NCBI RefSeq assembly: GCF_900112525.1
Contig: NZ_FOMD01000001.1
Location: 124,001-188,000, forward strand
Direction: 5' to 3'
Source: Klenkia taihuensis
GTDB taxonomy: Bacteria > Actinomycetota > Actinomycetes > Mycobacteriales > Geodermatophilaceae
DNA length: 64,000 bases
Below are positions 3,179 to 63,136 of this stretch, piece after piece. The stretch's first letter is position 1; the number at the start of each line of letters is the position of its first letter. The translations under genes and the position numbers were made by a program. The notes beneath the pieces were generated by a model. The model was not told the origin of the DNA. It saw nothing but the letters and a program-made list of their open reading frames with translations, and searched no databases.

Positions 3179-4756
3179 TCAGGCGCGCAGGCGGCGGTGG
3201 CCCCGGCGCTGCACCCGGCCGACGACCCGCTGCACCTTCGAGGGCGTGTGCTCCGGGTCCAGCAGCTCGGTATCGGCGAGCAGGGCGTCGATCAGCCCCT
3301 GGCGGGGCGGGGTGAAGGGCCGCAGCGACCGGCCGGTGTCCCGGCGCAGGTCCTCCACGGCGGCCAGCAGCGACCCGTCGTGCGCGGCGACCGCGGCGGC
3401 GACGTCGTCCGGGCCGACCCCGAGGTGCTCGGCGAGCAGCCGGTCGCGCACCCCGAGCACGGCGGCGGCGATCTCCTCGCGCCGCCGCTCGTCGTGCGGC
3501 GCCTCGATGGTCAGGTCGCACTCGGTGTCCAGGCCCATCGACCGGTTGTTCAGGTTCGAGGAGCCCACGCGCAGCACCCGGTCGTCGACGACGCAGACCT
3601 TCGCGTGCACGTAGATCGGCGCACCCTGCTCGGTGACCGGCACGTAGATGCGGAAGCGGCCGTGCACGTCGGCCTTGCGGACCATGCCGAGCAGCTTGGC
3701 GCGGGCGGTGCCCATCGCCTTCTCCTCGAGCCACCCGTCGGCGGTCTCGGGGTTGACGACGACGAACTCGGGCCCGTCCTCCTCGCCCAGCCGCTCGGCG
3801 ATGGCCTCGGCGATGCGGCGGTTGGCGAAGTACTGGCTCTCGATGTAGACGCAGGTGCGGGCGCTGGCGATCATCGCCAGCCACAGGTCCTCGATCTCGT
3901 GGACCAGCCCCCAGTCGCGGTGCCGGGGCCGGGTGCGCGAGATGGCGACGTCGACGTCGGACAGCAGCACCGGCACCTGGTCGGGCCAGCAGTGCTCGAC
4001 GCCCTCCACCGGGTCCAGGTCCTCGCCGGTGCCCGCGGCCCAGCGGCGCCGGGCCAGGTCGCCGAGCGCCGCGGCGGCGGGGCCGGAGACCAGGCTGGTG
4101 ACGTCGTGCCAGGGCTGCGTGGTGCGAGCCGAGCGGGGCCGGTGCCGGTGCCGCTGGCGGTCCAGGTGCTCGGAGGTGTCCCACCGGTCGGCGGTGACGT
4201 CGATGCCGCCGGCGAAGGCCAGGCAGTCGTCGACCACGACGATCTTCTGGTGGTGCGCGCCGCCCAGGGGGTGGTGGGCGTCGACCCGCAGCTGCAGCCG
4301 GTCGGGGGTGCGCCGGTTGATGAGCACCAGCGGGGCCAGGCCGCGGCCCAGCGCCTCCAGCATGCCGAGGTCCCACTGCAGCACGCCGACGAACAGGTCG
4401 GGGTTGCGCTCGACGGCGGCGGCCAGCACGCGGCCGACCCGGTCGTCGCGGCCCCGGCCGGGGGAGCGGGGGTCCATCCGGATGCGCGGGTCGAAGTCCC
4501 AGCCGATGAACAGCACCTGCCGCTGCGCCTGCAGCACGACCTGCTTGAGCGTGGCGAAGTAGTCGGCGGCGTCGACGAACACCGCGTGCTGGGTGGCCTT
4601 CTCGATCCGCCACACCGTCTCGCCGGGGACCAGCACGCTGCCCGCGGCCGGCGCGGGGTCGACCGGCTCCCGCGGGCTGGGGACGACCGCGGCGAACCCG
4701 CCGGTCCCCGGGTCGGTGCGGCTGCCCTCCGGCGGGGTGTCCTCGACCGGGGTCAC
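3179..4756 (-). CDS. Phospholipase D-superfamily protein (cardiolipin synthase/PLD-like)
   Basis: This 525-residue protein has two HxKx4D catalytic motifs: HHQKIVVVDD in the first half and HAKVCVVDD in the second, the latter followed by GSSNLNNRS. Two HKD motifs in one chain mark a PLD-superfamily enzyme (phosphodiesterase or transphosphatidylase). No signal peptide or membrane helix is evident, unlike classical cardiolipin synthases, so a cytosolic or peripheral location is likely. The GTG start at 4756 overlaps the TGA of the upstream NYN-domain gene by four bases. Substrate could be phospholipid or nucleic acid; the sequence alone does not decide. Confidence 0.85.
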   Translation of the reverse strand: MTPVEDTPPEGSRTDPGTGGFAAVVPSPREPVDPAPAAGSVLVPGETVWRIEKATQHAVFVDAADYFATLKQVVLQAQRQVLFIGWDFDPRIRMDPRSPGRGRDDRVGRVLAAAVERNPDLFVGVLQWDLGMLEALGRGLAPLVLINRRTPDRLQLRVDAHHPLGGAHHQKIVVVDDCLAFAGGIDVTADRWDTSEHLDRQRHRHRPRSARTTQPWHDVTSLVSGPAAAALGDLARRRWAAGTGEDLDPVEGVEHCWPDQVPVLLSDVDVAISRTRPRHRDWGLVHEIEDLWLAMIASARTCVYIESQYFANRRIAEAIAERLGEEDGPEFVVVNPETADGWLEEKAMGTARAKLLGMVRKADVHGRFRIYVPVTEQGAPIYVHAKVCVVDDRVLRVGSSNLNNRSMGLDTECDLTIEAPHDERRREEIAAAVLGVRDRLLAEHLGVGPDDVAAAVAAHDGSLLAAVEDLRRDTGRSLRPFTPPRQGLIDALLADTELLDPEHTPSKVQRVVGRVQRRGHRRLRA

Positions 4757-24203: not shown

Positions 24204-24236
24204 CCCCCCGCCTCCTCCACCCCACCCCCCACCCCC
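24204..24236. repeat. C-tract (minus-strand G-tract) at the left edge of the DUF559 unit
   Basis: Runs of CCCCCC, CCACCCC, ACCCCCC and ACCCCC give at least four G-runs on the minus strand, enough for a G-quadruplex. The mirror-image G-tract lies at 25437-25499 on the plus strand. Confidence 0.6.
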
Positions 24237-24241
24237 GTGGC

Positions 24242-24305
24242 GGGCGTCGATCGACGCTGATCGATCATTCGCCGGCCCGAGTGGTCGACAGGCGTCGATC
24301 GACGG
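24242..24305. repeat. Left palindromic end of the DUF559 unit
   Basis: The outer part contains a perfect 14-bp palindrome GCGTCGATCGACGC (24244-24257), and GGCGTCGATCGACGG recurs at 24291. Outer and inner halves are imperfect inverted copies of each other, so the DNA can fold into a hairpin of about 27 bp. The outermost 30 bases are a near-copy, inverted, of 25403-25432. Confidence 0.7.
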
Positions 24306-24428
24306 TTCACCGCAGGGGCAGCCGCGGGCGCGTAGCAGGTGGGGTCGGCGGGCGTCCACATCGTGGGTCCTCGTCCACAGATCTCCTCGCCGGCCACCGC
24401 TGATCGCCGGCCGCCGCACGCTGCGGGC
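24306..24428 (+). promoter_or_regulatory. Upstream region of the DUF559 gene
   Basis: It contains GCGTCCACA (24352-24360) and TCGTCCACA (24371-24379), near-matches to the high-GC DnaA box TTGTCCACA, and a weak CACGCT -10 candidate six bases before GTG 24429. No other gene was seen. Confidence 0.3.
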
Positions 24429-25409
24429 GTGGCGATCGATCTGGTGGAGCTGCTCGGTGCGGACGGTGCCCGGCGCAGCGCGGACGTGGTCGAGGTGGTC
24501 GGGCCGGCCAGCGTGACCCGGTGGGTCCGCCACGGGCGTCTGCTCCGGCCGCTCCCCGGCGTCCTGGTCCTGCCGTCGCGGGCGGGGACGTGGCGCACCC
24601 GTGCCGCGGCCGCCACCCTCTGGACCGGCGGTCGGCTCTGCGGGCGCAGTGCGCTGTACCTGTCCGACCTGGTGGCCGACCCCGGCCCGCTGGTGCACGT
24701 CGCGGTGGGACCGGCGCGGCACGTGGCCGTCGCGCGGCCGGACTGGCTGCGGGTGCACGTGGGTCCGGCCCCGTCCGGCCCGGTGGCGCAGGGTCTGCCG
24801 ATCACGGCGGACGTCGACTCGCTGCTGACCGCGTGGGGACACGCACACGCCCGTCGCGGCACTCCGCGGGAGGTCGAGGTGGCCCGGGGCGCGGTCATCG
24901 GCGCCTGCCGCAGGAAGCGGGTGGCGGTCGACCACCTGCAGGAGGAGCTGGCGGCGCGGAGCAGGCTGCCGGCGCGGCGGGCGCTCGGCCACCTGCTCGA
25001 GCAGATCGCGCGGGGGTGCCAGAGCGAGTTCGAGATCTGGGGGCTCACCGAGCTCCTGGACGTGCCCGGGTTGCCGCCGGTGCAGCTCCAGTACGCGCTG
25101 CAGACCGCGATCGGGACCGTCCACCTGGACGCCGTGATCGAGGAGGTGCAGCTGGGCATCGAGCTCGACGGGGCCGCCTACCACCGCAGCCCCGACAACT
25201 GGGCCCGGGATCGCCGCCGCGACAGCGCCGTGCTGGCGCGGGGGTGGGTGACGCTCCGCATCGACCACGCCCGCGCCCACCGCGACCCGCCGGCGACGCA
25301 GGAGGAGATCACCCGGGCCCACTGGGCCCGCAAGGCGACGTTGATCGCGCGTCCGCCCCAGCAGCGCGCCGTTGATGGACGGTCATCGATCATCCTGCCG
25401 CCGAAGTGA
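24429..25409 (+). CDS. DUF559 endonuclease-like protein with AbiEi-like N-terminus
   Basis: 326 residues. The N-terminal 80 residues (GPASVTRWVRHGRLLRPLPG, then CGRSALYLSDL) resemble the winged-helix start of AbiEi-type antitoxin proteins. The C-terminal part is a DUF559, Vsr-like PD-(D/E)XK fold: SEFEIWGL, VHLDAVIEEVQLGIELDG with acidic active-site residues, then AYHRSPDNWARDRRRDSAVLARGW. Nuclease activity is predicted from the fold only. The stop codon lies inside the right palindromic end, so the last dozen residues (DGRSSIILPPK) are written by the repeat. No partner toxin or antitoxin is adjacent. Confidence 0.8.
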   Translation: MAIDLVELLGADGARRSADVVEVVGPASVTRWVRHGRLLRPLPGVLVLPSRAGTWRTRAAAATLWTGGRLCGRSALYLSDLVADPGPLVHVAVGPARHVAVARPDWLRVHVGPAPSGPVAQGLPITADVDSLLTAWGHAHARRGTPREVEVARGAVIGACRRKRVAVDHLQEELAARSRLPARRALGHLLEQIARGCQSEFEIWGLTELLDVPGLPPVQLQYALQTAIGTVHLDAVIEEVQLGIELDGAAYHRSPDNWARDRRRDSAVLARGWVTLRIDHARAHRDPPATQEEITRAHWARKATLIARPPQQRAVDGRSSIILPPK

Positions 25410-25432
25410 TCGACCAGCGTCCATCGACGCCC
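25371..25432. repeat. Right palindromic end of the DUF559 unit
   Basis: Its two halves are imperfect inverted copies (GATGGACG..TCGATCA against CGATGGACGC..TCGATCA in reverse). Read in reverse, the outer 30 bases begin GGGCGTCGATGGACGCTG, matching the left end GGGCGTCGATCGACGCTG with one mismatch. The gene's TGA (25407-25409) is inside it. Confidence 0.7.
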
Positions 25433-25436
25433 GACT

Positions 25437-25499
25437 GGTGGGGTGGGTGGGTGGTTGGGGTGGGTGGGTGGTTGGGGTGGGTGGTTGGGGTGGGGTGGG
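25437..25499 (+). repeat. G-rich tandem repeat, strong G-quadruplex candidate
   Basis: About 63 bases built from GGGTGGGTGGTTGG units contain more than eight runs of three or four G. Together with 24204-24236 it forms outward-facing, inverted G/C tracts around the DUF559 unit. Confidence 0.75.
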
Positions 25500-46238: not shown

Positions 46239-46245
46239 TGCGCTG

Positions 46246-46328
46246 TGGGCAAGGGGGGAGTTGAACCCCCACGTCCTCTCGGACACACGGACCTGAACCG
46301 TGCGCGTCTGCCATTCCGCCACTTGCCC
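46246..46328 (-). tRNA. tRNA-Leu (CAG)
   Basis: Type II tRNA of 83 bases with discriminator A. The acceptor GGGCAAG pairs with CTTGCCC, the anticodon arm is CACGG-TTCAGGT-CCGTG with CAG, and the variable arm is GTCCGAGAGGAC-like. CCA is not encoded. TAGTGT (46345-46350, minus strand) is a plausible -10. Confidence 0.95.
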
Positions 46329-62280: not shown

Positions 62281-62862
62281 TCAGACCGCCCCGACGACCG
62301 TCTGCGCGACTTCCCGGGCCTGCAGGCTGGACTCCTGGTTGACCGTGACCACCACGACCAGCGTGCCGTCGGCGACGGCGAGCACGGTCTGCGGCCCCAC
62401 GGCGATCCCGCCGCCGTCGCCGACGTCGCGCACCGCGGTGCCGCCGAGGGGGGCGACGCGCTCGACCGCGGCGGTCTGCGCGGCGGTGGCGTCGGCGGCC
62501 TGGCTGATCTCCACGACCAACGCGGGCTCGCCGTTCGGCTTCGTGAAGGTGCAGGTCGGCGGTGGCCCACCGGGGACGCCGGTGGTGGTCACCGTGGGGG
62601 TGCGCTGGCCGACGGTGTCCTCGACGAACGACGTGTCGAGGTAGGGGCAGTCGGCCTCGGTGGTGACCGGTTCGGCCGACGTCGGCGCGGCCGTCGTGGT
62701 CGGCGCCGGGGAGGGGCCCACGGTGCTCGGCGGGGTGGCGGTCGGACCGCCCCGGCCGGTGTCGTCGGCCGGCCCGCCGCAGCCGGCGAGCAGGAGGACC
62801 AGCGTGGAGACGAGGGGAATCGAACCCCTGACCCCCGCCTTGCAAAGGCGGTGCTCTACCAA
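62281..62862 (-). CDS. Lipoprotein of unknown function whose 5' end runs into tRNA-Ala
   Basis: The body is a secreted lipoprotein: hydrophobic STLVLLLAGC lipobox, a Thr/Pro linker (PSPAPTTTAAPTSAEP) and a 125-residue domain with two cysteines (DCPYLD, PPTCTF), reminiscent of DUF3558-type lipoproteins. No ATG or GTG precedes the signal peptide in frame before the tRNA. The first plausible start is TTG 62862 inside tRNA-Ala, giving M-V-E-H-R-L-C-K..., a basic n-region, 193 residues. The start could also be a rare CTG or the gene may have lost its beginning. Confidence 0.65.
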   Translation of the reverse strand: MVEHRLCKAGVRGSIPLVSTLVLLLAGCGGPADDTGRGGPTATPPSTVGPSPAPTTTAAPTSAEPVTTEADCPYLDTSFVEDTVGQRTPTVTTTGVPGGPPPTCTFTKPNGEPALVVEISQAADATAAQTAAVERVAPLGGTAVRDVGDGGGIAVGPQTVLAVADGTLVVVVTVNQESSLQAREVAQTVVGAV

Positions 62863-62877
62863 TTGAGCTACGTCCCC
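62805..62877 (-). tRNA. tRNA-Ala (TGC)
   Basis: 73 bases. Acceptor GGGGACG with CGTCTCC (one G-U pair), D-arm AGCTCAATTGGTAGAGC, anticodon arm CCGCC-TTTGCAA-GGCGG with TGC, T-arm CAGGGGTTCGAATCCCCT, discriminator A; CCA not encoded. Confidence 0.96.
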
Positions 62878-63026: not shown

Positions 63027-63062
63027 GGGGCCGACCTCCTCGAGGGTGGGGCAGTGCACGGG

Positions 63063-63136
63063 TGGGCCTGGGAGGACTTGAACCTCCGGCCTCATCCTTA
63101 TCAGGGATGCGCTCTAACCGCCTGAGCTACAGGCCC
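63063..63136 (-). tRNA. tRNA-Ile (GAT)
   Basis: 74 bases. Acceptor GGGCCTG with CAGGCCC, D-arm AGCTCAGGCGGTTAGAGC, anticodon loop CTGATAA with GAT, T-arm GGAGGTTCAAGTCCTCC, discriminator A. TATGCT (63150-63155, minus strand) is a likely -10. CCA not encoded. Confidence 0.96.

Follow-up and report, generated by a model that had tools for sequence, protein, structure and literature searches.

In the genome of Klenkia taihuensis a nuclease gene lies between two palindromes, and the question raised by this locus is whether gene and palindromes together form a REP-like mobile or domesticated unit, as an earlier note had proposed. The window, which is the whole stretch of DNA that was analysed, comprises 64,000 nucleotides (C10:124001-188000 of the 4.32-Mb genome, hereafter G000; the labels G001-G007 denote relatives in the same genus). 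The proposal is supported by the occurrence of paired ends at other loci, of solitary copies of the ends, and of presence/absence differences between relatives.

The unit in the window and its protein

Table 1. Features of the hairpin-framed unit (positions within the window).
Feature	Position	Strand	Remark or basis
Left-end palindrome, family F1, 64 nt	24242..24305		Arms 81% complementary over 27 nt, loop 6 nt
First GTCCACA of the double upstream motif, 19 nt ahead of the second	24354..24360	+	
GTCCACAGAT upstream motif; start codon 56 nt downstream	24373..24382	+	Common to several genes of G000
AbiEi-like N-terminus and Vsr-like PD-(D/E)XK nuclease (MTES_1575/DUF559), 326 aa	24429..25409	+	GTG start
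Right-end palindrome, matches left end, holds the stop codon	25368..25432		Sequence comparison

The two imperfect palindromes said to frame the gene are borne out (Table 1), and the stop codon (TGA, 25407-25409) indeed lies inside the right one. The description of the ends as inverted near-copies has been corrected. The ends do match in inverted orientation, but since they are full palindromes they match in both orientations; the two window ends are also 77% identical as 60-nt direct copies, and in some other units the direct match is the better one. The 18-mers quoted for the outermost bases are located at 24242-24259 (+) and 25415-25432 (-). Searching the whole genome for the 18-mer pattern with up to two mismatches gives eight matches, compared with none for the backward control. 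Among these eight, two match places away from the window lie in solo F1-family hairpins (C10:244127 and C10:1479390), and the other three lie outside such hairpins. Solo copies of the F1 family have been located at C10:244124 and C10:324043.

The upstream neighbour is an enoyl-CoA hydratase, preceded by a 3-hydroxyacyl-CoA dehydrogenase; downstream follow a 68-aa protein without a Pfam match and a beta-lactamase-fold protein. Scanning these four neighbours with Pfam reveals neither a toxin-like or AbiEii toxin gene nor a cytosine methyltransferase. Rfam gives no match for the five sources examined. Just beyond the two ends, a C-rich (24217-24228) and a G-rich (25487-25498) simple tract are complementary over 12 nt. 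The window also holds three tRNA genes (Leu, Ala, Ile) at 46245-46328, 62804-62877, and 63061-63136, which are unrelated to the unit.

The assignment of the product to the Vsr-like PD-(D/E)XK nucleases with an AbiEi-like N-terminus agrees with Pfam, PADLOC, and the fold matches of an AlphaFold2 model. The protein matches the Pfam families MTES_1575 (E 3.7e-10) and DUF559 (1.7e-5), with AbiEi_4 reaching merely 0.11, and the PADLOC AbiEi model matches residues 26-179 (E 1.7e-5). The AlphaFold2 model has a mean pLDDT of 89.3. Its N-terminal half matches AbiEi (6y8q, E 2.3e-5) and M. tuberculosis Rv2827c (1zel, 9.4e-4), and the model also matches the catalytic domain of I-Bth0305I, Neisseria NGO0050, and E. 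coli Vsr, with weak E values of 0.04-0.25 and probabilities of 0.96-1.00. For the catalytic domain compared with the homing endonuclease I-Bth0305I (PDB 3r3p), the TM score by target is 0.66-0.75 (E 0.04-0.06). Glu202, Asp234, Glu245, and Asp247 are invariant in an alignment of 33 sequences. A tblastn search of plasmids with the window protein returns distant matches only.

Paired ends and the shared upstream motif

At least eight units composed of a hairpin, the upstream motif, a nuclease gene, and a second hairpin are present in G000, each with its own hairpin family; further MTES_1575 matches are found at C10:779670, 1138583, and 1405112. The pairing of ends has been measured in 49 homologous loci taken from the listed matches, with fragments and the weakest matches omitted and two pairs of pieces merged, by comparing the 350 nt ahead of the gene with a 360-nt stretch around its end. 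The median score of a locus against itself is 51; 40/49 loci reach a score of 34 and 34/49 reach 41, compared with 110 (4.7%) and 73 of 2,352 mismatched pairs, the highest of which come from loci with common neighbours. In 20,000 shuffles the median never rises above 26. Control ORFs (748 kb) reach 41 in 8/386 cases and 60 in 3/386; they were chosen by GC3 and not by annotation, some are spurious, and the window gene, displaced by a long antisense ORF, is absent from the 386. One of the three ORFs reaching 60 is the orthologue of the window gene in G001, and the other two represent one orthologous chemoreceptor-like gene (identified by eye) with repeated coding sequence alongside.

The same layout is observed across Actinomycetota. 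A phylum-wide search supplied a second, independent sample of 20 among its listed loci, and 11 of these score above the 95th percentile of mismatched pairs. For the 80 named loci, the best 80 of 154, a flank-to-flank comparison gave scores of at least 41 for 42/80 own pairs but also for 800/6,320 mismatched pairs. This comparison is confounded because many units have the same neighbour genes, and it has been replaced by a comparison of the hairpins only, in which 39/80 loci show an own-pair similarity of at least 30 against 5.0% of mismatched pairs. Strong hairpins, defined as those above the 99th percentile of control stretches, are found upstream of 44 of the 80 loci, downstream of 47, on either side of 65, and on both sides of 26.

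Loci beyond the phylum have been collected with E. coli YcjD (117 aa, without the AbiEi part) as the query, which matches 33 plasmid records; the test set consists of 14 of these loci and E. coli ycjD itself (n=15). In 10/15 loci the two ends match each other beyond the 95th percentile of mismatched pairs, and seven of these loci exceed every mismatched pair. The ten loci belong to Sphingomonas (2), Novosphingobium, S. meliloti, Azospirillum lipoferum, Neisseria, Picosynechococcus, and Deinococcus (3), so that paired YcjD-type DUF559 loci span Proteobacteria, Cyanobacteria, and Deinococcota. The S. meliloti unit end recurs at 38 places in its own record. E. coli ycjD has no matching left end (pairing score 19.5). 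On its 3' side (MG1655, L269 1690-1920) it adjoins a repeat that is found in 5,375 of 5,426 genomes, the median being 16 places in each. This repeat presumably resembles Box C. The ycjD stop codon lies within a second palindrome-like stretch, like that of the window gene. Some DUF559 units interrupt metabolic or assembly gene clusters (L276, L280, L279, and L283), at the junctions sufB|sufC and paaD|paaZ and at two different hpa junctions.

Across the four sets, 9/49, 9/20, 41/80, and 5/15 (YcjD-type) loci fall below the respective cut-offs. A gene between matching palindromes is confirmed as a real and general layout. The suggested check for the same ends at other DUF559 loci is positive for the layout, paired palindromic ends being present at many of them, but not for the sequence of the ends, which is specific to each family and differs between units.

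A motif shared by the units lies ahead of the gene. TCCACAG is found there in 40/49 loci (on the reverse strand in 6) compared with 0-1/49 in control stretches, and in 73/80 named loci upstream compared with 0/80 downstream. The motif GTCCACAGAT has 20 copies in G000 and none in the backward control; the nine genomes of the genus hold 6-24 copies each (control 0-2). An ORF begins 55-58 nt past GTCCACAGAT in 14/20 cases, and a second GTCCACA often lies 19 nt ahead of it. The genes behind GTCCACAGAT, established for G000, include seven of DUF559/AbiEi type, all of them framed by hairpins with scores of 47-160. Among the 13 others, nine are testable and score 25.5-43.5, and four run off their locus. 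For L105, L115, and L119, in which Pfam finds AbiEi_4 without the nuclease, and for L108, which has no Pfam match, the type has been assigned by eye. The eighth unit, at C7:264672, bears a variant motif. The other genes encode an SSB, a ComEA-like SLBB-HHH protein, TadE, a CpaB-like protein, a UPF0102/Mg-chelatase (ComM-like) pair, and a DEAD helicase, as well as DUF4192, DUF2786, FHA, SWIM, and M23 proteins. The double motif also occurs at C3:84682, C3:142824, C7:426524, C7:430284, C10:1530014, and other places in G000, some 57 nt ahead of the start codon.

A reading of the motif as a DnaA box has been dropped, since its other target genes and its customary spacing from the start codon suggest a promoter element; DnaA may nevertheless bind it. 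On the basis of these gene functions, GTCCACA and GTCCACAGAT, 19 nt apart, are a putative cis-element of a DNA-uptake-like regulon, and the expression of the Geodermatophilaceae units may be tied to DNA uptake. For competence in Micrococcus luteus, the available part of one report states that upstream signals or the regulatory cascade "remain to be identified" (PMC12849477). The common upstream motif would offer an entry point to competence control in Actinomycetota.

Solo hairpins and change at fixed sites

Solo ends, dispersed copies of the hairpins without a gene, are found in G000 and in its relatives. A joined query, to which every one of the eight units contributed a single hairpin, gives 80 matches in G000 and 0-78 in eight other genomes; these are not copy numbers, since palindromes match both strands and 40 candidates were scored per genome. 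Solos have been counted in 400 kb of G000 (9) and in 348.6 kb of G001 (10). A comparison of these two genomes at 15 distinct solo sites shows three in common, one probably in common, nine with clean presence/absence, and two ambiguous. The midpoint lies outside ORFs for 14/19 solos, although ORFs cover 81-82% of the DNA.

Empty sites in relatives, also suggested as a check, exist for the nine clean solos and for one whole unit, but not in clean form for the window unit. Seven of eight relatives, all but G004, have an uninterrupted sequence with no hairpin at solo site A, which in one of the seven is supported by a shorter match. The F3 unit occupies one site in G000 and G006, and the site is uninterrupted in the other seven of the nine genomes. 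At the window site, the three genus genomes without a unit have a different left neighbour, and for this reason there is no clean empty allele. No target-site duplication is readable by eye at the nine clean solo sites or the F3 site, where the intergenic DNA has diverged. The outcome that would have refuted the proposal, ends absent from other DUF559 loci and no presence/absence variation, is therefore not what is observed, since paired loci and solos exist, as do empty sites for solos and for one other unit.

Hairpin families and their units do not always coincide. F1-like solos are present in G001 and G006, where other ends flank the unit at the window site, and F3-like solos in G001 and G002, where the closest F3-like protein reaches only 50-51% identity. 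No F3 or F8 solos are seen in G000 among the matches listed. Solo site B holds an F1-type hairpin in G000, G001, G006, and G007. At the same site in G003 (C25, near 3712-3818) lies a hairpin matching the window-site unit ends of the G003/G006/G002 type. In G004 a partial F3-like gene (C12:355999-356890 and 358495-359243) is located 1.6 kb from the F3-unit site.

Orthologous units occupy the window site in six genomes, with a left-right similarity of 47-65 within each unit. Between the groups {G000, G007}, {G006, G003, G002}, and {G001}, the left ends score only 14-23. For the right ends, G000 and G007 reach 15-20 in comparison with all the others, and G001 shows partial similarity (27-41) to G006, G003, and G002. 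Within a species group, orthologous ends score 42-79 (left) and 49-91 (right), compared with 50-65 for the two ends of one unit; being about as alike as the two ends of a unit or more so, they indicate that the ends are not simply kept identical. At a second site a unit is present in all nine genus genomes, its ends again differing between species. Since two sites are common to six and nine genomes, movement of whole units must be rare.

The gene changes along with its ends. Between G000 and G001, the flanks of the window site are 93.9 and 93.2% identical and the genes 70.4%. The synonymous difference is 0.50 for the gene and 0.14 and 0.10 for the neighbours; the corresponding values are 0.42 against 0.12 and 0.08 for G007, and 0.44-0.48 against 0.24-0.31 and 0.15-0.16 for G002, G003, and G006. 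The gene thus exceeds its neighbours 3.5-5 times (G001, G007) or 1.5-3 times (G002, G003, G006), an excess of which codon constraint may account for a part, given a GC3 of 0.936 in the gene and 0.980 in the hydratase. The dN/dS of the nuclease gene is 0.11-0.40 in nine pairs. These data show that the gene is under purifying selection and diverges faster than its neighbours, and that at a fixed site both ends change together between species groups while the neighbours are conserved. The earlier view that gene and ends evolved together holds in this sense for the window site, where the ends differ jointly between species, but over all units the similarities of protein and hairpin correlate weakly (rho 0.29, 418 non-syntenic pairs).

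Known systems and the proposed partnership

According to the available part of the source, the hallmarks of RAYTs are two flanking inverted REPs, co-evolution, faster evolution than the neighbours, and abundant cognate REPs where the gene is present (Nunvar 2010, PMC2817692). As far as the accessible portions of the REP/REPIN-RAYT reports go (PMC2817692, PMC8049555), the units resemble these systems in several respects: two palindromes flank the gene, ends and gene co-evolve (here at the window site), the gene outpaces its neighbours in evolution, extragenic copies are dispersed, and the hairpins are mobile while the gene persists for long at one site. The abundance of cognate repeats with the gene is mixed here, because F1-like and F3-like solos also occur without a cognate unit. 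The enzyme differs, being a Vsr-like PD-(D/E)XK nuclease in place of a Y1 HUH tyrosine transposase. The hairpins, of about 50-95 nt, form several families per genome, each with its own unit; the ends match best in direct orientation in some units and in inverted orientation in others; and the upstream motif is common to DNA-uptake genes. The Y1/RAYT transposase (PF01797) is found in 0/9 genomes of the genus, in a search limited to the Y1 class. With the first three hallmarks present in part or in whole and the defining enzyme not found, the system would work like REP-RAYT but is not one.

CGTC-tagged REPs are dispersed palindromes, mainly of alphaproteobacteria, that "apparently lack a dedicated transposase" (Di Nocera 2013, PMC3733652, available in part); they are alike in being dispersed and apparently transposase-less, and different in their short stems of 8-9 bp. 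I-Bth0305I shares the predicted catalytic-domain fold, whereas here there are hairpin ends and dispersed solos and no intron or fractured gene has been seen. The AbiEi antitoxins and Rv2827c share the predicted N-terminal fold, which here is fused to a nuclease with no toxin-like gene in the four neighbours. In Caulobacter, a cytosine-methylase mutant needs the DUF559 protein VsrA for its SOS response; VsrA is itself SOS-induced and has been proposed as a mismatch-repair enzyme, and the text of that account does not mention palindromes (PMC12907096). The need for VsrA supports an action of a DUF559 protein on DNA in vivo in Caulobacter (PMC12907096). Hairpin-framed nuclease units are not described in the DUF559/Vsr literature covered, which takes in few subscription journals and no bioRxiv preprints, and no publication mentioning DUF559 was found to be concerned with repeats. 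A paper on the tandem repeats of Borg elements reportedly names MTES_1575 once. The link between this nuclease family and REP-like hairpins appears to be new, no earlier one having been found.

Nuclease genes framed by hairpins that are also dispersed alone suggest a selfish or domesticated partnership of gene and hairpin. We consider it probable that this partnership is REP-RAYT-like, with a Vsr-like nuclease replacing the tyrosine transposase. In such a mechanism, the Vsr-like domain would recognise its cognate palindrome, folded as a hairpin or cruciform, and nick it. The nick would seed copying into new intergenic sites, often of the hairpin and rarely of the whole unit. The AbiEi-like domain may supply DNA binding or autoregulation. 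In Geodermatophilaceae, the palindromes could fold during DNA uptake, the incoming DNA being single-stranded, with the lagging strand or a cruciform as alternatives.

The persistence of solos of a family where no protein closely related to the cognate one is present would also be expected if the palindromes were mobile repeats moved by another enzyme, with the DUF559 units as preferred passengers, or if, given the presumably DNA-binding AbiEi-like N-terminus, they were operators of the AbiEi domain. We regard this as unlikely, as short YcjD-type proteins without the AbiEi part also have paired ends, the nine other genes behind GTCCACAGAT that are testable are unframed, and a search for Y1 transposases in nine genomes of the genus finds none. 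The predicted resemblance of the catalytic domain to I-Bth0305I, the synonymous difference of the gene above that of its neighbours at the same site, which is expected under allelic replacement, and the motif shared with DNA-uptake genes would fit a freestanding homing element, whose nuclease cuts the unit-less allele so that uptake and recombination copy the unit in, with the hairpins as recognition site or protective ends and the solos as remnants. This is quite unlikely, because homing alone is insufficient to explain solos that occupy many unrelated sites and have clean empty alleles; a transposition-like spread is required. Transcription terminators or insulators kept alike at both ends by gene conversion would suit the left hairpin beginning 38 nt past the hydratase stop, the right hairpin lying between convergent genes, and the many solos close behind ORFs, but are very improbable, given that a simple scan finds no terminator-like site at the locus, that pairing is rare for other genes, and that solos are whole blocks missing in relatives.

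If the REP-RAYT-like partnership of nuclease and hairpin is correct, it could extend well beyond this genus. We put forward tentatively, as a possibility somewhat short of an even chance, that DUF559/Vsr-like nucleases are the missing partners of many transposase-less dispersed palindromes, from Actinomycetota to E. coli (ycjD and its repeat), Sinorhizobium, Neisseria, Deinococcus, and cyanobacteria, with the actinobacterial ones wired to a DNA-uptake programme and their hairpins acting on single-stranded DNA. For many of the palindromes dispersed in bacterial genomes, no source is known to us, and a widespread, seldom-named nuclease family that frames itself with palindromes is a concrete candidate enzyme for them. 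The DUF559 units would then represent a second, independent origin of REP-like biology, and laboratory E. coli (ycjD) and Sinorhizobium would make the question of the palindrome source experimentally accessible.
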